Notes: a model not told the origin generated them from the letters alone. Counted from the stretch's first letter, positions 13,308-64,000 are shown. The stretch: DNA of 64,000 nucleotides from Candidatus Obscuribacterales bacterium (GCA_019745505.1 JAIETE010000046.1:1-64000), one strand, 5' to 3'. Numbers and translations are program-made.

Positions 13308-13395
13308 CGGGAAGAGTGGGATTCGAACCCACGGACGCTCATAATCCGTCTACGTCTTAGCAGAACGTCGCTTTAAGCCACTCAGCCATCTTCCC
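13308..13395 (-). tRNA. tRNA-Ser (anticodon GCU)
   Basis: 88 nt, type II. Acceptor GGGAAGA/TCTTCCC with G as discriminator. D-arm GGCTGAGTGGCTTAAAGC. Anticodon stem ACGTT/GACGT around loop CTGCTAA (anticodon GCT). A long variable arm, then T-arm GTGGGTTCGAATCCCAC. CCA is not encoded. No intron. It reads AGC/AGU codons. It is the nearest upstream gene to rtcB on the same strand. Confidence 0.95.
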
Positions 13396-53046: not shown

Positions 53047-54954
53047 ATGAACGGATTTATTCGTGCGCGCAGTTGCCTGACTATGACCATGGTAACTCTG
53101 GCAATCTCGATTAGTTTGGCAGCCTACGGGGCACCCCAAAAATCAGAGAAAGACGCTACCGCAAGGAAGACTGCAGCCAAGCAGTCGCCAGCCAAGGCAT
53201 CCCCCGCCCCCCCGTCCAGCGACAAAGGTTCGCACTCGAAAGGTTCGGGTTCTCATTCCTCAAACTCTAAGAATGACAACCGCATTGTCTTGAATGCCAT
53301 GCGAAAGGAGTTGGACCGCTCATTGAAGCATCTCAAAAACGCAGGCAATGCACCTCTTTACTTTCTGGCGTACCGAATCTACGACACCGAGACAGTGGAC
53401 ATCAAGGGAACTTTCGGCGGTCTTTTGGGTGCCGAACGCCCAAGAAAAACTCGAGTCGTGGACATTGACCTGAGGGTCGGCTCTCCCGAACGGGACAGCA
53501 GTCACCCGGTCAGAGGTGGCGGCTTTGATATCGGCAGCATGTTCTCCGGTGGCTCCCCTTTCAAATTCACGCCGATGGAGGACAACGAGGATGCTTTGCG
53601 TGTCGCGCTCTGGTCTTTGACAGACAAGGAGTTCAAGTCAGCGCAAAAGAAATACATGATGGTTCTGGCAAACAAAGATGTGAAAGTGGAGGAGGAAGAT
53701 AATTCCGCCGACTTCTCGCTCGAGACGCCCCAGAAGGATTTGAAAGTCAGCGAATCACTGAATATTGATAGAAAGCTGTGGGATGATCGAATCAGACGCC
53801 TCTCGAAAATCTATCGTTCTTACCCCGGCATCGAAGATGCTGCCGTAGAATTTACAGCCACCAAAACTACACGCTATCTGGTGACGAGTGAAGGCACGGA
53901 AATTCAAGACGAACGCATACAATACCGCGTTTTCACCACAGCCAAGACTGTTGCATCAGACGGAATGAGGCTTGCGCTGTATGACGGTGTCGAGGCTCCA
54001 ACTCTGGCTGATGTCCCGGACGAAGCACACCTGGAAAAAATGGTGGCAAATGTCGCCAAAGATCTCGTTGCATTGCGAAACGCTCCGGTGGCTGAGCCAT
54101 ATGTTGGTCCGGCTATTTTGAAAGCAAAAGCATCAGGTGTATTTTTCCACGAGACGTTCGGACACCGAATCGAAGGTCACAGACAGAAGAGTGAAGACGA
54201 AGGAAGAACTTTTGCGAAAAAAGTCGGACAGCAGATCATGCCGGAATTCGTTACGGTAAGCGACGATCCGACGCGTGTCAGATTCGGTACGAAAGCGCTC
54301 AACGGGCACTACAAGTTTGACGATGAAGGCGTACCAGGCACAAAAGTCACTTTAGTGGATAAAGGCGTTTTGAAAACATTTTTGATGGGTCGCTCGCCCA
54401 TTAAAGACTTCGCGACATCAAATGGACATGGACGTTGCTCACCGGGAAGAGATCCGGTAGCACGGCAGGCTAATCTGATTATCGACAGTGCCAAACGAGT
54501 CCCTTATCCAAAGCTTCGAGAATTGCTGATCGAGGAAGTAAAAAAACAAGGCAAACCATACGGACTGATCTTCGACGAAATTGCCGGTGGTTTTACAATG
54601 ACTCAATCGGTTTTGCCGCAAGTCTACAAACTGCTGCCGCTGCGAGTATGGAAAGTCTACCCGGATGGTAAGCCGGATCAGCTAATGCGAGGGGCGGATC
54701 TGGTAGGAACTCCTTTAGCATCGCTGGAGCGCATTTTGTGCGGTGCGGATGACGATGATACTTTCAATGGTACGTGCGGGGCAGAATCCGGATGGGTTCC
54801 CGTGTCAGCTACCTCTCCCAGTTTATTGGTCGGAACAATTGAAGTCGAACGCCAGCACAAGGCACAAGACAAGCCGCCGTTATTGCCCTCCCCAATGTCC
54901 GAACCGGACAAAGAGACGAAATCCGAGTCTTCATCGAAAGGAGCGGCAAAATGA
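53047..54954 (+). CDS. TldD-like metalloprotease, exported
   Basis: 635 residues with a signal peptide (MTMVTLAISISLAAYGAP) and a Lys/Ser/Pro-rich linker. The TldD core carries VFFHETFGHRIEGH near residue 365, the HExxxH zinc motif of the TldD/PmbA family, and the C-terminal domain (GFTMTQSVLPQVYKLLPLRV, LVGTPLASLERI, CGAESGWVPVSATSPSLLV). TldD is normally a cytoplasmic partner of TldE. Here the signal peptide predicts export. The stop overlaps the next start as ATGA, so the pair is translationally coupled. Confidence 0.9.
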   Translation: MNGFIRARSCLTMTMVTLAISISLAAYGAPQKSEKDATARKTAAKQSPAKASPAPPSSDKGSHSKGSGSHSSNSKNDNRIVLNAMRKELDRSLKHLKNAGNAPLYFLAYRIYDTETVDIKGTFGGLLGAERPRKTRVVDIDLRVGSPERDSSHPVRGGGFDIGSMFSGGSPFKFTPMEDNEDALRVALWSLTDKEFKSAQKKYMMVLANKDVKVEEEDNSADFSLETPQKDLKVSESLNIDRKLWDDRIRRLSKIYRSYPGIEDAAVEFTATKTTRYLVTSEGTEIQDERIQYRVFTTAKTVASDGMRLALYDGVEAPTLADVPDEAHLEKMVANVAKDLVALRNAPVAEPYVGPAILKAKASGVFFHETFGHRIEGHRQKSEDEGRTFAKKVGQQIMPEFVTVSDDPTRVRFGTKALNGHYKFDDEGVPGTKVTLVDKGVLKTFLMGRSPIKDFATSNGHGRCSPGRDPVARQANLIIDSAKRVPYPKLRELLIEEVKKQGKPYGLIFDEIAGGFTMTQSVLPQVYKLLPLRVWKVYPDGKPDQLMRGADLVGTPLASLERILCGADDDDTFNGTCGAESGWVPVSATSPSLLVGTIEVERQHKAQDKPPLLPSPMSEPDKETKSESSSKGAAK

Positions 54955-56711
54955 GATATTTGAAGCAACTTGTAATTCCAGTAACGCTAATCTCAATCGT
55001 TTCCACCTTTTCAAATACCGCTCTGGCTCAGGATGATATCGTCTTCAAAGCGATGAAAGACGAGATGAATCGCTCGATGAAAGAGCTGAAAATAAAAGGA
55101 CATGAATCTCCTTACTTCATTTCATACACGATCAAAGACAAAGATCTAATGAGAATCACCGGCTCCTTCGGCGCCATCGATTCAAAGAATATTGAACGCG
55201 ACCGAGATCTGAATGTGGAGTTGCGCGTAGGCGATTATGACCTGGACAATACAAGATTTTCGGATGGTGGTCTTTTCGGCGCAATTTTGGGCGGACGAAT
55301 GTCGCGCGGCGAGTCAATCACCGTTGATGATGATTACAAGGTTCTGCGCCAGTCGATATGGAGCGAAACAGACGACGCCTACAAAGGTGCCATTGAAAAG
55401 CTGGAAGCAAAAAAGGCTTTCTTGCAACAGAATATCGTAAAGGATCGACCGGCCGACTTTTCGAAAGAACCTGCACTAACTTCTTTGGAGCCGCCGGTGA
55501 AAGTGCAGTGCGATGAAACGAAGTGGAGCAACATAGTGCGCCAGCTCTCCGCTGTGTACAAAGATTATCCAAAAGTAGATCAGTCCTTGGTAATGTTCGG
55601 ACTGGACACGCTCAATCGCTGGTTCGTCAACAGCGAGGGAACCAAGACATTCTCAGCCAGACCGGAATATGTCTTGCTTGTCACAGCTTCTGCGCGCGCA
55701 GATGACGGTTATGTTGTTTGCGACAGCGAGGTCTTTGTAGGGCGCACGGAAGCTGATTTTCCGACGCTGCCCGAACTCGAAAAACGCTTGCGGGCGATGG
55801 GAGAGCGGCTGACCAATTCGATCAAGGCACCGCTTCTGGAAGACTACGATGGCCCGGTACTTTTTGAAGGCGAAGCAGCCGGAGAGTTCTTCTCGCAGAC
55901 GCTTGGACAAAATTTCGGCAATCCGATCGAACCGCTTGGTGGCGGCATCGCATCGATGATGGGCAGCACGAACCCGCTAAAGGATAAATTCGGGCAACGT
56001 GTACTACCAACCTTCATGTCTGTTGTTGATGATCCCTCCGCAACCGAATTCAAAGGTACAAAACTCTTTGGTGGCATGAATATAGATCACGAAGGGGTGA
56101 AGACAGAAAAGCTTACACTGATCGATAAGGGAATTCTCAAAACATTCTGTTCCACAAGAACTCCAAGTCGCTATGTCAAACAGAGCAACGGTCATTCGCG
56201 TTACGGCAATGCAAGCACGACGAATCTGTTTGTGAACACTGAAACCACAACCAGCAAAGACCAGATGTATAAAAAATTGCGGGAGCTTGGAAAACAGGAA
56301 GGTCTGAAATCTGTTCTTGTCGTAAGGCGCGTGCAGAACCTGTTTACGTCCGTCCTCGACCCCAAATCAATCCTCATGGGCATGTTGGGTTCGATGCGCA
56401 AACAATCAGGTTTCAGCTTGCTTCCAGCATCACTTGTCTATCAAGTCGATGTTGAAACGGGTGCAGAGACGCTCGCGCGAATCACGCCATTCAATGGAGT
56501 TGGATTGAGCACCTTGCGCGATATTGTGGCAACAGGTGATGACTCAACCGCTTATCCAATTCTTTTGCCGACTGTATCTCAGGGTGACGCGTTGAGCATC
56601 GTCGCACCATCCGTGCTCATCAAAGAAATCGATACACAGAAAGCCGACAAAAATACGGAAAAAGCTCCAATTCTTCCAAATCCATACTTCGAGCAAAAGG
56701 CCGCGAAGTAA
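54951..56711 (+). CDS. TldE/PmbA-like non-catalytic partner, exported
   Basis: 586 residues, signal peptide cut near ALAQDD. Aligned with its neighbour it has VLFEGEAAGEFFSQTLGQNF where the neighbour has VFFHETFGHRI: the zinc His and Glu are replaced (SQTLGQ), as in TldE. Other parts run parallel (VFKAMKDEMNRSMKELK vs VLNAMRKELDRSLKHLK; TRTPSRYVKQSNGHSRYGNA vs GRSPIKDFATSNGHGRC). It should form an inactive half of a TldD-TldE type heterodimer that gates access to the active subunit. Confidence 0.88.
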   Translation: MRYLKQLVIPVTLISIVSTFSNTALAQDDIVFKAMKDEMNRSMKELKIKGHESPYFISYTIKDKDLMRITGSFGAIDSKNIERDRDLNVELRVGDYDLDNTRFSDGGLFGAILGGRMSRGESITVDDDYKVLRQSIWSETDDAYKGAIEKLEAKKAFLQQNIVKDRPADFSKEPALTSLEPPVKVQCDETKWSNIVRQLSAVYKDYPKVDQSLVMFGLDTLNRWFVNSEGTKTFSARPEYVLLVTASARADDGYVVCDSEVFVGRTEADFPTLPELEKRLRAMGERLTNSIKAPLLEDYDGPVLFEGEAAGEFFSQTLGQNFGNPIEPLGGGIASMMGSTNPLKDKFGQRVLPTFMSVVDDPSATEFKGTKLFGGMNIDHEGVKTEKLTLIDKGILKTFCSTRTPSRYVKQSNGHSRYGNASTTNLFVNTETTTSKDQMYKKLRELGKQEGLKSVLVVRRVQNLFTSVLDPKSILMGMLGSMRKQSGFSLLPASLVYQVDVETGAETLARITPFNGVGLSTLRDIVATGDDSTAYPILLPTVSQGDALSIVAPSVLIKEIDTQKADKNTEKAPILPNPYFEQKAAK

Positions 56712-57120: not shown

Positions 57121-58032
57121 TTAACTTAGTCCTGCATTTTCTGCAGCAAATTGTGCAATTGCGCATGGGTCCATGTCCCCTTTCCCCTGTCCGATAGAAC
57201 CGAGAAAAGCATTTTCGATTGCAAACAGAAGCGGCATGGGTACTTGCGATTCAATCGCAGCAGCGACCGCAAGCCTGGTATCTTTTTCCTGCAATTTCAC
57301 TGTAAATGCACCACCTGCAAATCTCTCATCGGCAATAATCGTTCCGTACTTTTCATAGATTGGAGATTGGAAAAAATCCTTTGCAACGATCTCCAAAAAC
57401 TTATGATGATCAACTCCATTTTTGCGAACAAGTGCAAACGCTTCGCCAAATGTTTCAATCATTGAGCTGAGCATGAAATTAGCCGCCAGCTTGATGGTCG
57501 CTGCTTGTACCGGACTTTCGCCCACAACGTGGGTGACTCTACCTATCGCGTCAAACACTGGTTGACATCTCTCAATAGCAGCCTTGTCTCCTGAAGCCAT
57601 CACGACAAGCTCACCTCGCTCTGCGACGTCAGGCCGCCCCATGACTGGAGCAGAGATTAAAGTCTTTCCCCGAGCGGAATACTCTCGCTCCATCCGCCTA
57701 ACCAGTTGAACACCAATTGTGCTCATGGAAACATGAATACAGTTTTGCGCCTGATGTTCTAACAATCCATCAACAGCGCCAAGCTCTTTGTGAATTCCGG
57801 ACAATTCTCCAAACACGATACTCTCAACAGCAGCATCATCGGATAGCATCGTGATCACAACGTCTCCCTGAGCCGCACCGGCTGGGTCATGCGAAAACAT
57901 CGCACCGTCTTCCATCAGTGGATGCGCTTTCTCTTCAGTTCGATTGTAGACCGTCACCTCATGACCCGCAGCAAGGAGGTGCGACGCCATAGCGAAACCC
58001 ATGCTGCCGAGCCCAATTACACCAACTTCCAT
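57121..58032 (-). CDS. 3-hydroxyisobutyrate-dehydrogenase-family oxidoreductase
   Basis: Start at 58032 is supported by GGAGG and by the family N-terminus. About 303 residues. NAD(P) loop EVGVIGLGSMGFAMASHLL, the next strand VTVYNRT, substrate region VSMSTIG and ISAPVMGRPDVAERGELVV, and the catalytic Lys in AATIKLAANFMLSSM. YNRT at the end of beta-2 favours NADPH. Related enzymes reduce glyoxylate, succinic semialdehyde or tartronate semialdehyde. It starts 21 nt downstream of the terminator of small RNA copy A. Confidence 0.9.
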   Translation of the reverse strand: MEVGVIGLGSMGFAMASHLLAAGHEVTVYNRTEEKAHPLMEDGAMFSHDPAGAAQGDVVITMLSDDAAVESIVFGELSGIHKELGAVDGLLEHQAQNCIHVSMSTIGVQLVRRMEREYSARGKTLISAPVMGRPDVAERGELVVMASGDKAAIERCQPVFDAIGRVTHVVGESPVQAATIKLAANFMLSSMIETFGEAFALVRKNGVDHHKFLEIVAKDFFQSPIYEKYGTIIADERFAGGAFTVKLQEKDTRLAVAAAIESQVPMPLLFAIENAFLGSIGQGKGDMDPCAIAQFAAENAGLS

Positions 58033-58052: not shown

Positions 58053-58265
58053 AAACAAAAATGTCACCCAGATTGCTCTGCGGTGACATTCTTACTACTG
58101 CCTGACTGCTCATTGCATATGAGCTCAGTATTTCATCACGCTTCAGTCAGTCCTTCACGTGGTGCGGGCTTCTTGCTACGGTTTCCGATCGACGCCGATC
58201 TAGTGTTTCCGCAAAGCCCCTCGGCTCAAAGCACTCAACAATTAAGTGACGTGCTCACCGTTGAT
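58053..58265 (-). ncRNA. array small RNA, copy A (diverged)
   Basis: Minus-strand unit: -35 TTGAAC (58294-58299), 16-bp spacer, -10 TAAACT (58272-58277), start near 58265, and intrinsic terminator AATGTCACC/GGTGACATT (58060-58068, 58082-58090) followed by TTTTGTTTGT. Internal hairpins: GCTCA/TGAGC in 58108-58124, GATCG/CGATC in 58187-58200, and long-range CTGACTG (58102-58108) with CAGTCAG (58144-58150). No frame shared with the other copies is open; for example the plus-strand frame open in B-D is stopped by TGA at 58084. Its stems differ from copies B-D by compensatory pairs. Confidence 0.75.
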
Positions 58266-58398
58266 GCATTTAGTTTACCGCGTTCAGACATACGTTCAAC
58301 TACCCCAGAAGACATTTAAAGATCTGCTTTGGGTCCATCAAAGAACCACTCTAGACATAGAATTCGCCATTCGCATCGCGTTAACAAGCGCCGGATCA
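58053..58398 (-). repeat. 347-bp-class repeat unit A
   Basis: Small RNA A plus its promoter and the conserved block CGTTAACAAGCGCCGGATCA (58379-58398). Beyond the block the sequence is unrelated to the other copies. The minus-strand frame through the block reads ...LYILWFVVAYSILAGFAEYI then DPALVNAMRMANSMS. Confidence 0.85.
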
Positions 58399-58579
58399 AT
58401 GTACTCAGCAAAGCCGGCGAGGATCGAATATGCAACAACAAACCAAAGGATATACAACGGGACGCGATCCCGATATCGCCCACGCCCACTGACTTCCCAA
58501 GCTTGCCTTTTTCAAGCTGGAACTTTTGCCACTGGCGCTCAGTCTTGCCCTTGTACCGAAAAATGGAGTATCAAAAATC

Positions 58580-58663
58580 ATGGGTAAGGCATTCATATTG
58601 TGGATTTGCGGGGTTCCGACCGGCATTATCGCTCTGCTCTGGTTGTTCGGATTTTTGCACTAA
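58580..58663 (+). CDS. 27-residue small membrane protein
   Basis: MGKAFILWICGVP followed by TGIIALLWLFGFLH: two short hydrophobic stretches separated by a turn. GGAG lies 11 nt upstream. It resembles other bacterial small membrane proteins with an LLWLFG end. It is the only credible gene between repeat copies A and B. The flanks 58399-58579 and 58664-58786 show nothing else on the plus strand. Confidence 0.5.
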   Translation: MGKAFILWICGVPTGIIALLWLFGFLH

Positions 58664-58786
58664 GCAAGAGAAAATACTGATCGCAGAAGAAGACGGCAGC
58701 AGTATTGAAGGTTCATTTCTTGTACTAAAACGTTTTGCAAAACGGTGCATGCAGATTGATGCAACCGCGAGGACAAACTCGTCAAC

Positions 58787-58999
58787 AAACAAAAATACCA
58801 GCCAGATTGCTCTGCGCTGGTATTCTTACTACTGCCTGACTGCTCTTTGCATTAGAGCTCAGTATTTCATCACGCTTCAGTCAGTCCTTCACGTGGTGCG
58901 GGCTTCTTGCTACGGTTTCCGGTTGACGCCAACCTGAAGTTTCCACAAAGCCCCTCGGCTCAAAGCACTCAACACTTAAGTGACGTGCTCACCGGTTAT
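58787..58999 (-). ncRNA. array small RNA, copy B
   Basis: -35 TTGATC (59028-59033), 16-bp spacer, -10 TATACT (59006-59011), start near 58999, and terminator AATACCAGC/GCTGGTATT (58794-58802, 58816-58824) followed by TTTGTTTG. Hairpins GCTCT/AGAGC (58842-58858) and GGTTG/CAACC (58921-58934). Same length as copy A, with no insertions or deletions between -10 and terminator. Confidence 0.8.
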
Positions 59000-59133
59000 G
59001 GGATTAGTATATCGCGCTCACACATACGATCAACTACCCCAGTGATCATTTTACGATTACATTCTTGGCATTACAAAGATGCCCTTCAGACATAGCGATC
59101 ACCATTAGAGACGCGTTAACAAGCGCCGGATCA
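58787..59133 (-). repeat. 347-bp repeat unit B
   Basis: Small RNA B, promoter and the invariant 20-bp block at 59114-59133. The minus-strand frame through the block reads LIVVMVNVSV, DPALVNASLMVIAMS, EGHLCNAKNVIVK and stop. Confidence 0.85.
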
Positions 59134-59228
59134 ACAGACACGTTCACCATCACCACGATCAGTTCTAAAAAGAGGACTTCGAAACAAAAAAGGGAACATT
59201 CATATATGTCGACAACCGGAGACAAGCC

Positions 59229-59894
59229 TTGAAATTACGAATCTTTGTCATGTTTGTCAGTCTGTGGACATTGTCCAGTGCCGCGTTTGCGCAAAACTGG
59301 CGAACACCCAATCCAAATCAACCAAATGGCTATCGAGCTACCGAAGCCGCTTACCACTTTCACGGAAGCTACAAGGAACCTTCAAGTCCTTCCAATGGAT
59401 ATCGAGCAACAGAAGCGAGAAGTCGAGCCGGAATGAATTGCTTTGCGCCGCCATCTTCGCCGGAAAAAAGCGAGGGGGGACGCTGGGGCGGCAGCGAGAA
59501 CAGGCGCTGGGGAAACGCTACAGGAAGCAGCTTTCAGAATGCCGCAGTAATGCAAAACAGGCAAGAGGAATGGAACGAGTTTTACAAACGCCGCTTTGAA
59601 GCAACTGAACAAGGCGGATACAACAACGCGATGCAAGCAGAACAACCACGCGCCGAGCAGAGATTCGCCGACCCACAGCAGTTTACGAACACCTATCCGG
59701 CAGCGACTGCGATCGGTAACAATTTCAACGGATATGCGCAGCCGGGTGAGAGTTTCGGCTCCGCTCAAGCAATGCGAGCCGCAGTCGGAGCAAGCGCCGT
59801 AAGGCGAATGTTGAGAAATGGCGACGAGGGTTCATTCAACCGCGTCTACAACAGCAATAGCGGTGGATTCAACAGAATCTACGCCAGTGAGTAG
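59229..59894 (+). CDS. exported low-complexity hypothetical protein
   Basis: 221 residues. TTG start with GGAG seven bases before it; an ATG at 59250 would shorten the signal peptide. Signal peptide (LRIFVMFVSLWTLSSAAFA). The mature protein is rich in Asn, Gly, Arg and aromatic residues and contains duplicated segments (NGYRATEA twice, GSFNRVYNS and GGFNRIYAS near the end). No family recognised. It sits between repeat copies B and C, and its stop is 19 nt from copy C. Confidence 0.65.
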   Translation: MKLRIFVMFVSLWTLSSAAFAQNWRTPNPNQPNGYRATEAAYHFHGSYKEPSSPSNGYRATEARSRAGMNCFAPPSSPEKSEGGRWGGSENRRWGNATGSSFQNAAVMQNRQEEWNEFYKRRFEATEQGGYNNAMQAEQPRAEQRFADPQQFTNTYPAATAIGNNFNGYAQPGESFGSAQAMRAAVGASAVRRMLRNGDEGSFNRVYNSNSGGFNRIYASE

Positions 59895-59912
59895 CGATAA
59901 GCAGAACAGAGC

Positions 59913-60125
59913 AAACAAAAATACCAGCCAGATTGCTCTGCGCTGGTATTCTTACTACTGCCTGACTGCTCTTTGCATTAGAGCTCAGTATTTCATCACG
60001 CTTCAGTCAGTCCTTCACGTGGTGCGGGCTTCTTGCTACGGTTTCCGGTTGACGCCAACCTGAAGTTTCCACAAAGCCCCTCGGCTCAAAGCACTCAACA
60101 CTTAAGTGACGTGCTCACCGGTTAT
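59913..60125 (-). ncRNA. array small RNA, copy C
   Basis: -35 TTGATC (60154-60159), 16-bp spacer, -10 TAGACT (60132-60137), start near 60125, terminator stem 59920-59928/59942-59950 with TTTTGTTTG after it. Sequence nearly identical to B and D in the transcribed part. Its promoter has the weakest -10 of the four. Confidence 0.8.
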
Positions 60126-60259
60126 GCAATTAGTCTATCGCCTTTGCGCATACGATCAACTACCCCATTGATCATTTAACGATGATATTCTTGGCATTAT
60201 CGAGATGCGCATTAGACATAGCAAACGCTTCGCCGGATTCGTTAACAAGCGCCGGATCA
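59913..60259 (-). repeat. 347-bp repeat unit C
   Basis: Small RNA C, promoter and the 20-bp block at 60240-60259. C and D are the most similar pair, including the sequence between the promoter and the block. Confidence 0.85.
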
Positions 60260-60315
60260 ACAAGCAGAGGTAAAGTCACAGCGATCGCAATTTCGACATT
60301 TCGAAGGGTAGTCAA
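60172..60315 (-). CDS. 47-residue candidate peptide upstream of small RNA C
   Basis: TTG start with AGGTG seven bases upstream. Sequence MTTLRNVEIAIAVTLPLLV, then DPALVNESGEAFAMSNAHL and DNAKNIIVK. The part from DPALVN to the stop is shared with copy D (and in part with B) and shows third-position differences against B (TCT/TCC, CTT/CTC, GTA/GTT), which is compatible with coding. It may be a small protein or the preserved end of a lost gene. Confidence 0.35.
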   Translation of the reverse strand: MTTLRNVEIAIAVTLPLLVDPALVNESGEAFAMSNAHLDNAKNIIVK

Positions 60316-60368
60316 AAATAAGCACCTAGTTGGAAAAATCCAAAAACTCAAAGAGGCCGAATCTTGAG

Positions 60369-61325
60369 ATGAGCAATACCTTTTCTCTAAGAAGTAGTTG
60401 GAATCTACAGTGGAAAATATTGACACTAAAGGCGACGCGAGAAGAGTTGTTAAACCTCAAGCCGGAGCTACTGCTCTGGGGGGTGCCCGTTACTCTCATG
60501 GCGGGGATTGGACGCGCCTGGGACAATCCGGCGGAAGAACTATTGATGCGCAGTGGATTACCATCCGTTGCTTACATCTTTGTTCTATCTGCATTTCTAT
60601 ACTTCTTTATTGCTCTACTTAGACCAAAGAATTGGTCGTATCGCAGACTGCTCATCCTTGTATCAATGACGGCTCTGCCTGGACTGTTATACGCGATTCC
60701 GCTGGAGATGATTCTGAAGCCCGGCGATGCGGCAGCAGGCAACACTATTCTACTTTTCATCGTGGCGGTCTGGCGCGTTGTCATCCTTGGTTATTTCCTG
60801 GCGAAGACTACGGACATGCGCTTTGCCCATCTAGTAGTGGCTTTGTTCCTGCCACTCTTCTTGATCATCAATTTACTCATTACTCAAGAAAAATTCGAAA
60901 AGACTTTCTCCGCGATGGGTGGAATCAGAAAATACCTCGTAATATCGGACGAAAGTGCTTTCAGCCAATGGAAAGAGAGCGAGGAAGCGCAGAGAAAACT
61001 CGCTGCTGCCAGAGGAGAGTTGTATCTCTCCAGATACTCGACTCCGGTGCCGTATCAAACGGACAATAACAAGACGGGCGAAACCATTTTTCTTCAAGGC
61101 GGTTTCAGAGAAAACGCTCCCATCCCGCCTGGTCTAAGAGAAATTCCCTGGGATGATCCACATTATTTGCCGCCTAGCCCGGTTATGTTTTTCATTCGTC
61201 CACTGGGAACAATAAGTTGGTATGCGGCTCCCGTACTGTTGATTTACTATGTGGGTGCGGTTATTGGTGGAATCATCGAACGAATCAAACATCGCCGAAA
61301 GTGCGATGCCGATAAACCCGAGTAG
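60369..61325 (+). CDS. polytopic membrane protein of unknown function
   Basis: About 318 residues from the ATG at 60369. About five or six membrane helices (PELLLWGVPVTLMAGIG, VAYIFVLSAFLYFFIALL, LILVSMTALPGLLYAIPL, AGNTILLFIVAVWRVVIL, VVALFLPLFLIINLLI) and one near the C-terminus (APVLLIYYVGAVIGGII). A soluble loop of about 100 residues lies between the fifth and the last helix. No family recognised. It occupies the interval between repeat copies C and D; its stop is 11 nt before copy D. Confidence 0.7.
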   Translation: MSNTFSLRSSWNLQWKILTLKATREELLNLKPELLLWGVPVTLMAGIGRAWDNPAEELLMRSGLPSVAYIFVLSAFLYFFIALLRPKNWSYRRLLILVSMTALPGLLYAIPLEMILKPGDAAAGNTILLFIVAVWRVVILGYFLAKTTDMRFAHLVVALFLPLFLIINLLITQEKFEKTFSAMGGIRKYLVISDESAFSQWKESEEAQRKLAAARGELYLSRYSTPVPYQTDNNKTGETIFLQGGFRENAPIPPGLREIPWDDPHYLPPSPVMFFIRPLGTISWYAAPVLLIYYVGAVIGGIIERIKHRRKCDADKPE

Positions 61326-61336
61326 CGAAGCGGCGC

Positions 61337-61549
61337 AAACAAAAATACCAGCCAGATTGCTCTGCGCTGGTATTCTTACTACTGCCTGACTGCTCTTTGC
61401 ATTAGAGCTCAGTATTTCATCACGCTTCAGTCAGTCCTTCACGTGGTGCGGGCTTCTTGCTACGGTTTCCGGTTGACGCCAACCTGAAGTTTCCACAAAG
61501 CCCCTCGGCTCAAAGCACTCAACACTTAAGTGACGTGCTCACCGGTTAT
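61337..61549 (-). ncRNA. array small RNA, copy D
   Basis: -35 TTGATC (61578-61583), 16-bp spacer, -10 TATACT (61556-61561), start near 61549, terminator stem 61344-61352/61366-61374 followed by TTTGTTTG. Same structure as B and C. Confidence 0.8.
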
Positions 61550-61683
61550 GTGATTAGTATATCGCGCCCACACATACGATCAACTACCCCAGTGATCATT
61601 TAACGATCGCATACTTGGCATTATCGAGATGCGCATTGGACATAGCAAACGCTTCGCCGGATTCGTTAACAAGCGCCGGATCA
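61337..61683 (-). repeat. 347-bp repeat unit D
   Basis: Small RNA D, promoter and the 20-bp block at 61664-61683. The minus-strand frame through it reads VRADSGYSMLFCAAAAN, DPALVNESGEAFAMSNAHL, DNAKYAIVK and stop. This frame is the same as that of the GH94 gene, one TAG upstream. Confidence 0.85.
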
Positions 61684-61757: not shown

Positions 61758-64000
61758 CTACTTTGAATCAATTACAGGAAGATTACTCTCCAATGGTGGA
61801 ATTGTTCTTTCCTGGCAGCGACCGACGCTGATTACAACATTGTGATCTTGCCGATCATCCACGAGTGATATTGCTCCGTTGGACTGTTCTACACCGTCCA
61901 CCGAGACGGTTTGAGAATCATCACTATCGGCACGCTGCAACACAGTAATGTGATAAACAGTCTCACGATATCGGTAGTGAATTTTGTATTCACTCCACTC
62001 GGCCGGCAAACATGGTTTAAAGCGGAGTTTATCGACCTGCAGACGAATCCCTAAGATGGATTCGATGATCAACCGATACATCCAACTAGCCGACCCCGTA
62101 TACCATGTCCATCCGCCCCGCCCAGTGTGCGGTGAGACTCCGTACACGTCTGCCGCCACCACATACGGTTCCACTTTGTAGATTTGCGTACTATTTGGGT
62201 CTAGAGCATGATTGACTGGATTGATCATGGCAAACAGTTCCCAGGCACGTTTGCTATCACCCAATGCAGCAAACGCCATTGCCAGCCAGATTGCGGCATG
62301 AGTATACTGACCGCCATTCTCTCTGACACCGGGCACATAACCCTTTATGTATCCAGGATTCAATCCGGATTTGTCAAACGGCGGATCGAGAAGTTGAATA
62401 AGTGCACTTTTGTGACGCACCAAATGTGCATACGCCGAATCCATAGCTTTTCGAGAACGCTCGATTTCTCCGGCGCCTGAAAGAATCGACCAACTCTGGG
62501 AAATAGAGTCGATCTTGCATTCATCATTTGTAGCGGAACCAAGCGGTGTTCCATCGTCGAAATACGCACGACGATACCAATCTCCATCCCATCCGCTTCT
62601 AGACAGGTGCTGCCTTAACCGAGCCGCTTCAGCCTCGCATCTGTCGGCAAAAGTATCATCCTTCCTTGACCTGGCCAGCGGAATAAACCGGCGTAGTACC
62701 TCATAGAGGAAAAAGCCCAACCAGACGCTCTCGCCCTTGCCATGCTCACCGACAAGATTCATTCCGTCATTCCAATCGCCGGTTCCGATCAGAGGCAAGC
62801 CATGCTCGCCGAATTTTAGTCCATTGAGAATGGCTTTCTGACAGTGTTCGTACAAATTAGCTGTTTGCTGCGAACGCCCCGGCAGATCATAATATGAATC
62901 ATCTTGAGGATTGACAGCGCGACCAGTGAGAAAATGAGCCTGTTCGTCAAGTACGCCAGTGTCGCCGGTCATCATTACGTAGCGGCAGGCAGCCAGCGGC
63001 AACCACAAATAGTCGTCGGAGATGCGCGTGCGAACACCACGACCGCTGGGAGGATGCCACCAGTGTTGAACGTCGCCTTCCAAGAACTGCCGTGAAGCGC
63101 ACAACAACAGTTGCTTGCGCAAGCGGGACGGCTCGGCATGCACCAGCGCCATTGCATCCTGCAATTGGTCTCTGAAACCAAAAGCACCACCCGATTGATA
63201 ATAACCACTTCGAGCCCACAAACGACAAGCTATCGTCTGATACATCAGCCAGCCGTTTGCCAGCATGTTCAAGGCTGGATCGGGAGTTTGTACGTTCAGT
63301 GCACCCAGAGTATGCTTCCAGTATTGGCACAGTGTTTCATACGCATCATTGCGTGCTTTGATGCCGCGAAAACGATTGATCAAATTGCTGGTATCAGCCA
63401 AATCCTGACCTATACCCAGCCTGAAGACAACCTCTCTTTCTTGGCCATCCTGCAATTCGAGAGGAACTTGAACCGCACCACAAGGATCGAGCGAAGCTCC
63501 AACCTTGCCGGACAGCTTTTGCCTGCTCATAGCGGCAGGATTGCGCAAACTGCCATTACGACCAATAAACTCAGCTCTGTCCCCGGTGACACCACGGTTC
63601 GTTTCGTCGACATCAACGAAAGCAATCCTTTCGCCAAATTCTCGATTGTAGTGATTGCGAGCAAGAAGAGCACCGGTTTTCGAGTCAATTTCGGTGGTTA
63701 CATGCATTACTGTTTTCGGCTTCATTTCTCCGAACACCCACTCGAAATATGCAGTAGCAGACAACTTACGGGGACGGCCTGAGTTATTGCGAACCTTTAG
63801 TGCCGCAATTTTCACGGGCGCATCAAGAGCTACGAATACACACAATTCAGTGGTGATACCGCCCTCTGTATGCTCGAATACGCTGTAGCCAAAACCGTGA
63901 CGCGTTATATATGGAGTAGGGCCACGGACCGGCATGGGAGTGGGCGACCAGAAATAGCCGGTCTCCTCATCACGGACATAGAATGCCTCTCCGGAATCAT
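61758..64000 (-). CDS. GH94-type glycoside phosphorylase / cyclic-glucan-synthase C-terminal part (5' end outside window)
   Basis: The frame is open to the right edge; sequence upstream of the first internal Met (DSGEAFYVRDEETGYFWSP) is clearly coding, so at least 747 residues are present and the N-terminus is missing. Blocks typical of NdvB/ChvB and cellobiose phosphorylase-like GH94: PTPYITRHGFGYSVFEH, ARSGYYQSGGAFGFRDQLQD, HWWHPPSGRGVRTRISDDYLW, catalytic Asp in IGTGDWNDGMN, GYVPGVRENGGQYTHAAIW, and PHTGRGGWTWYTGSASWMYR. It acts on beta-linked glucans, either as a free phosphorylase or as the end of a large cyclic beta-1,2-glucan synthase. It ends 75 nt from repeat copy D. Confidence 0.9.
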   Translation of the reverse strand, partial: DSGEAFYVRDEETGYFWSPTPMPVRGPTPYITRHGFGYSVFEHTEGGITTELCVFVALDAPVKIAALKVRNNSGRPRKLSATAYFEWVFGEMKPKTVMHVTTEIDSKTGALLARNHYNREFGERIAFVDVDETNRGVTGDRAEFIGRNGSLRNPAAMSRQKLSGKVGASLDPCGAVQVPLELQDGQEREVVFRLGIGQDLADTSNLINRFRGIKARNDAYETLCQYWKHTLGALNVQTPDPALNMLANGWLMYQTIACRLWARSGYYQSGGAFGFRDQLQDAMALVHAEPSRLRKQLLLCASRQFLEGDVQHWWHPPSGRGVRTRISDDYLWLPLAACRYVMMTGDTGVLDEQAHFLTGRAVNPQDDSYYDLPGRSQQTANLYEHCQKAILNGLKFGEHGLPLIGTGDWNDGMNLVGEHGKGESVWLGFFLYEVLRRFIPLARSRKDDTFADRCEAEAARLRQHLSRSGWDGDWYRRAYFDDGTPLGSATNDECKIDSISQSWSILSGAGEIERSRKAMDSAYAHLVRHKSALIQLLDPPFDKSGLNPGYIKGYVPGVRENGGQYTHAAIWLAMAFAALGDSKRAWELFAMINPVNHALDPNSTQIYKVEPYVVAADVYGVSPHTGRGGWTWYTGSASWMYRLIIESILGIRLQVDKLRFKPCLPAEWSEYKIHYRYRETVYHITVLQRADSDDSQTVSVDGVEQSNGAISLVDDRQDHNVVISVGRCQERTIPPLESNLPVIDSK

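Follow-up and report, generated by a model that had tools for sequence, protein, structure and literature searches.

Within the 64,000-nt stretch of Candidatus Obscuribacterales DNA analysed here (the window; GCA_019745505.1, JAIETE010000046.1:1-64000), which derives from an uncultured non-photosynthetic cyanobacterial relative, four units of ~350 bp lie on the minus strand, each consisting of a promoter-like region, a predicted transcript of ~212 nt and an intrinsic terminator. An earlier sequence-only reading had described a 347-bp unit occurring four times in one orientation, which our alignment bears out (a 300-nt register at 82-100% identity, with a further 61 nt upstream), but which it could not match to any family it knew. 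This second statement is overturned, as all four copies belong to RF03041 (poplar-1 RNA, Rfam type sRNA) according to cmscan, with scores of 149.5-150.5 bits and E-values of 4e-34 to 7e-34, some 40 bits above the gathering cut-off of 110.5 bits, and with the full model (positions 1-141) covered. Homologues, which the reading had named as one form of support, were also recovered in related genomes. Poplar-1 is the only Rfam match of the window unit; no other family comes close and no riboswitch family is found even at E <= 10. The predicted RNAs, all on the minus strand, occupy 58057-58268 (copy 1; poplar-1 core 58091-58230, 149.5 bits), 58791-59002 (copy 2; core 58825-58964), 59917-60128 (copy 3; core 59951-60090) and 61341-61552 (copy 4; core 61375-61514), the latter three each scoring 150.5 bits, with borders placed from the -10 element, the conserved start region and the T-run. 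Terminators with T-runs are present in all four copies as reported (58057-58089, 58791-58823, 59917-59949 and 61341-61373), being the same element throughout with an 8-bp stem in copy 2, and the 16-nt spacer between the proposed -35 and the -10 is likewise exact in each copy. The 212 bp given between the -10 and the terminator stem needs correcting: this gap measures 182 nt, whereas the predicted transcript is ~212 nt long. No reading frame was said to be common to the copies, and indeed no sense frame is shared by 115 family copies, of which 1, 0 and 0 are fully open in the three sense frames and 8, 21 and 23 in the antisense frames. An Rfam E-value near 1e-34 and the covariation seen in 70 sequences show that the array is not a chance pattern; it comprises members of a known RNA family whose anatomy and distribution are new. 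Conservation and covariation also make it well supported that these are multicopy small RNA genes, each with a predicted promoter and terminator of its own, as the reading had proposed. The RNA itself looks compactly folded, unlike antisense sRNAs of the Qrr or LhrC type.

Copy 1 is situated just upstream of a minus-strand gene for a 6-phosphogluconate / 3-hydroxyisobutyrate dehydrogenase-like protein (57121-58031, start picked by eye; PF03446, 7.6e-39; PF14833, 9.4e-16), while copies 3 and 4 are convergent with plus-strand ORFs, both lacking a Pfam match: 59229-59894 separates copies 2 and 3 and has a signal-peptide-like N-terminus, and 60330-61325 separates copies 3 and 4 and contains hydrophobic stretches. 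These three copies conform to the earlier description, in which every copy faced the 3' end of a plus-strand gene or lay just upstream of a minus-strand gene, but copy 2 does not, there being no convincing gene directly behind it. A glycosyl hydrolase family 94 gene follows the array on the minus strand (61758-63935; PF17167, 2.6e-128). Also near the array are two adjacent paralogous PmbA/TldD-type metallopeptidase genes on the plus strand (53047-54954 and 54951-56711, PF19289 in both), and the sole tRNA of the window is a tRNA-Ser (gct) at 13308-13395 on the minus strand. Neighbouring Ser/Thr kinases were considered as a lead and set aside, as these genomes have about 95-146 kinase matches each.

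Eight poplar-1 copies were identified in the genome from which the window derives, four in the window and four more on other contigs. The family is present in 47 of 53 Obscuribacterales genomes at 1 to 14 copies each, and absent from 243 other genomes of the phylum and from 14 controls. Named records carrying the core pattern come from MAGs of Ca. Melainabacteria, Ca. Obscuribacter or Obscuribacterales, alongside some further records whose labels are vague or apparently wrong; four records labelled Actinobacteria (L061, L064, L075 and L076) carry poplar-1 and the label is probably wrong. Many MAG contigs begin or stop within a poplar-1 copy (in genomes G021, G020, G030 and G027; e.g. L159, L160, L163, L188 and L190), and since assemblies break inside copies, the counts per genome are probably too low. 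R1, a longer model that we built, recovers truncated copies missed by the present Rfam model, such as two partial ones where contigs of G027 begin; eleven genomes belonging to the class's other families gave no match to it. As printed, the Rfam model starts at UUUGAGCC and stops before the terminator, and is therefore without the 5' kink-turn hairpin, pseudoknot and terminator found here. Compared with that model, our computation adds likely borders for the gene and a control region conserved upstream of it, a kink-turn and a pseudoknot (both predicted), one-orientation arrays and a syntenic copy. Neither poplar-1 RNA nor RF03041 is mentioned in the literature searched, work on k-junctions included.

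Covariation was scanned by column over 125 sequences and the full structure was counted on 70 less redundant sequences. Column covariation reveals pairs missing in the Rfam consensus line, namely a closing pair that is C-G but becomes G-C or A-U, as well as the 5' hairpin and the pseudoknot. In the ten-helix structure, which includes these two elements and the terminator, 94.2% of cells are paired and 605 cells show double changes as opposed to 161 in shuffles, a count reached in none of 500 shuffles and far from the maximum of 101 obtained with slid controls. The Rfam helices (3, 4, 5, 6, 8 and 9 of this structure) are present and supported by covariation, with 87-99.7% of cells paired, as is the 8-bp terminator stem (98.4% paired, double changes in each of the eight pairs). 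The minimum-energy fold of a single sequence broadly agrees with the nested helices (z = -3.3). Invariant positions are located in junctions and internal loops with no single long open seed, and the first G of the GGAAAC strands, which are internal-loop positions, is incompletely conserved.

The 5' hairpin (P1) is a predicted kink-turn, having the strands CGG-U-GA and N3-GA-G-CCG at its base. In copy 2 (58956-58994, minus strand) this appears as a CGG/CCG stem with UGA (58991-58989) opposite UUU-GAG (58964-58959), and over the 70 sequences both GA steps are present in 64, the 3-nt loop in 68 and a 3b.3n G.U in all 70. Of six genomes with poplar-1 that were tested for a domain of the L7Ae type, which binds kink-turns, only one gave a match, so this motif may have a purely architectural role. 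The L7Ae-domain match resides in a 592-aa open frame (L184, genome G034) and is the only one among eight genomes tested. The pseudoknot joins the P5 loop to the strand after the next hairpin via six pairs, with 94% of cells paired and double changes in all six, one of the pairs being A-U in 39 sequences and G-C in 25. In copy 2 (58836-58884, minus strand), CUGACU of the P5 loop (58879-58884) pairs with AGUCAG (58836-58841). Among 31 held-out copies from genomes outside the model, automatic patterns, some of whose misses may be parsing failures, detected the kink-turn in 27, the pseudoknot with at least five exact pairs in 25, and the promoter element GGGGTAsT in 27.

Upstream of the RNAs, the predicted promoter regions on the minus strand (58272-58306, 59006-59040, 60132-60166 and 61556-61590 for copies 1 to 4) combine GGGGTAGTT (58298-58306, 59032-59040, 60158-60166 and 61582-61590) with a -10 reading TAAACT (58272-58277), TATACT (59006-59011), TAGACT (60132-60137) and TATACT (61556-61561), respectively. 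To establish which parts are conserved, 120 copies were aligned at the conserved GGTGAG and motif counts were compared with shuffled controls. GGGGTAsTT is found ~47-48 nt before GGTGAG in 106 of 120 copies (one shuffled). The -35 hexamer of the sequence-only reading (TTGATC or TTGAAC) is present at its exact spacing in the window, but it is the overlapping GGGGTAsTT that is conserved, whereas the hexamer at this place varies over the 106 copies (TTCACA, TTCCAT, TTGATC, TGGAAC and others) even though 16 or 17 nt separate it from the -10 in 103 of them; the hexamer is thus probably not the functional element. Further upstream, GCGCTTGTTAAY near -133 occurs in 50 of 120 copies (none shuffled) and TGCCAAG near -77 in 35 of 120 (four shuffled). 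In the window, copy 1 has the upstream element GCGCTTGTTAAC at 58380-58391, position-locked in 50 of 120 copies and none shuffled, and the upstream elements of copies 2 to 4 span 59064-59126, 60190-60252 and 61614-61676, all on the minus strand, with TGCCAAG at 59064-59070, 60190-60196 and 61614-61620 and GCGCTTGTTAAC at 59115-59126, 60241-60252 and 61665-61676. At least 200 nt separate upstream genes from the poplar-1 core in 107 of 112 copies; a zone of ~200 nt upstream of poplar-1 stays gene-free and is a conserved control region. We rejected the possibility that this region is a coding tail, suggested by a minus-strand DPALVN...VK* at copies 2-4 that resembles a protein C-terminus, because copy 1 interrupts the frame and because the blocks conserved over genera are short position-locked DNA elements. 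Nor did a regulon sharing the upstream element emerge: in two genomes, GAGCGCTTGTTAAY with up to one mismatch was in no excess over a reversed control, a weak test as the pattern is two mismatches off the variant in the window.

The copies in the window have diverged unevenly. Copies 2, 3 and 4 have 100% identical RNAs with promoters at 83-95%, -200 to -60 regions at 69-79% and downstream regions at 61-66% identity, and copy 1 represents a second RNA type at 91% identity. Identical RNAs amid diverged flanks indicate strong constraint, which points to an important job. The same flanks, with a dehydrogenase-like gene on one side and a GH94 gene on the other, are found in two related genomes, where they enclose one or three copies. 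Neighbours up to 6 kb apart make up 27 pairs in the same orientation and none in opposite orientation, as local duplication would give. Dense arrays, all in one orientation, were also seen on two contigs of genome G305, with five copies at L193 (C7) and four at L194 (C119) within about 4-5 kb. One copy is syntenic, lying close to dut, dapB, asd, dapA and rnj (RNase J) in 19 genomes that represent 13 genera; in several of them the locus opens with an M16 peptidase gene (Pfam names were checked on one locus, L136). The genes behind the RNA are on the same strand in 18 of 21 such places. Elsewhere, the downstream gene of 100 copies is on the same strand in 56 and on the opposite strand in 44 (p = 0.27).

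We considered several alternative explanations for these units. Compact kink-turn, pseudoknot and terminator elements together resemble riboswitch architecture, and the syntenic copy precedes same-strand genes including dut-dapB-asd-dapA-rnj, as expected if poplar-1 were a cis-acting riboswitch or attenuator in which an aptamer and terminator control the gene behind. Against this, an opposite-strand gene follows nearly half of the other copies, convergent genes lie opposite copies 3 and 4 of the window, and within the 75 strongest covarying column pairs the terminator columns covary only with one another, with no sign of an anti-terminator. The 56:44 strand ratio and the missing anti-terminator covariation make a cis role unlikely outside the syntenic locus, and as a general explanation we regard it as improbable. 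An ordinary base-pairing antisense sRNA of the Qrr/LhrC kind, regulating mRNAs in trans via an open loop, would account for the multicopy arrays, the individual promoters and terminators and the stand-alone position. This possibility is nevertheless doubtful, as the P5 loop is engaged in a pseudoknot and covaries with its partner strand, and what else is conserved and unpaired consists of short stretches in junctions or internal loops. In addition, PF17209 (Hfq) was unmatched in six genomes, although divergent cyanobacterial Hfq can escape this model, as did that of Synechococcus, which is divergent and was likewise unmatched as a control.

A lineage-specific 6S-like RNA binding RNA polymerase would be of similar size, stand-alone and structured, with dosage set via copy number. 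We consider this very unlikely because a separate single-copy 6S candidate (RF00013) is found above cut-off in G006 and slightly below it in G000, and because 6S RNA has a long-hairpin form to which a kink-turn and pseudoknot are ill suited. Lastly, dispersed and arrayed copies, together with the many MAG contigs ending inside poplar-1, could reflect a mobile or repetitive MITE-like DNA element rather than a functional RNA gene. This interpretation is largely refuted, leaving it barely credible, by the extensive compensatory changes, the syntenic copy in 13 genera, the uniform orientation of neighbours (27 of 27), the lack of matches in the viral contigs, plasmids and phages searched, and the absence of inverted-repeat pairs of at least 40 nt (the length range covered) at the window units. 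That the unit might prove to be a known insertion element or protein gene, raised in the sequence-only reading as grounds for abandoning it, is likewise not what we found, as it is an Rfam RNA family without a sense ORF common to the copies.

Family membership, fold, borders, multicopy arrays and control-region conservation are computed results; that poplar-1 is transcribed, acts in trans and is recognized by its fold instead of by base pairing with mRNA is inferred. Our preferred reading, to which we assign a probability of roughly 0.6, is that the tightly folded poplar-1 RNA stands alone and serves in trans in a regulatory or scaffold capacity, with each copy a complete transcription unit. 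It would probably act through a protein or ligand rather than by simple antisense pairing, and the missing open seed hints, if weakly, at such a fold-based mode of action. Trans action through the fold is favoured because a cis role is unlikely, 6S is separate, and neither CsrA nor Hfq was found (the model can miss cyanobacterial Hfq). Each unit would comprise the ~200-nt upstream control region, GGGGTAsTT in the -35 region, a TAnAcT-like -10, the ~212-nt RNA and a terminator with a covarying stem, and its expression may be set by factors binding the upstream elements. The transcript would fold up compactly, its 5' end forming the kink-turn hairpin, its two conserved GAAAC strands opposing each other across an internal loop and its P5 loop pairing with the 3' strand as a pseudoknot, and this fold may be recognized by a protein or small ligand. 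Several copies would raise the dose, and separate promoters would allow different inputs. More speculatively, and with rather low expectation, poplar-1 might constitute an order-specific class of riboswitch-like stand-alone RNA whose kink-turn/pseudoknot fold serves as a ligand sensor or as the binding site of a dedicated protein, acting in trans from several separately controlled genes.

Poplar-1 is one among many catalogued structured RNAs without known function, and its hosts are nearly all uncultured. It can now be placed in one order, in most of its genomes and at up to 14 copies, with likely borders, a control region and a testable kink-turn and pseudoknot fold. Among known systems, poplar-1 resembles the Qrr, LhrC and Sib RNAs in having several near-identical sRNA genes per genome, each with a predicted promoter and terminator, but these Rfam families are unmatched and its fold is compact and pseudoknotted where theirs has open seed loops. 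With CsrB/CsrC and RsmY/Z it shares possible protein binding and GGA triplets in unpaired parts; however, the GGA steps are not conserved as hairpin loops, and CsrA (PF02599) was not detected by Pfam in six genomes. Kink-turn riboswitches such as SAM-I similarly unite a kink-turn, pseudoknot and terminator in one compact RNA, from which poplar-1 differs in being without an Rfam riboswitch match and in not lying consistently upstream of same-strand genes.
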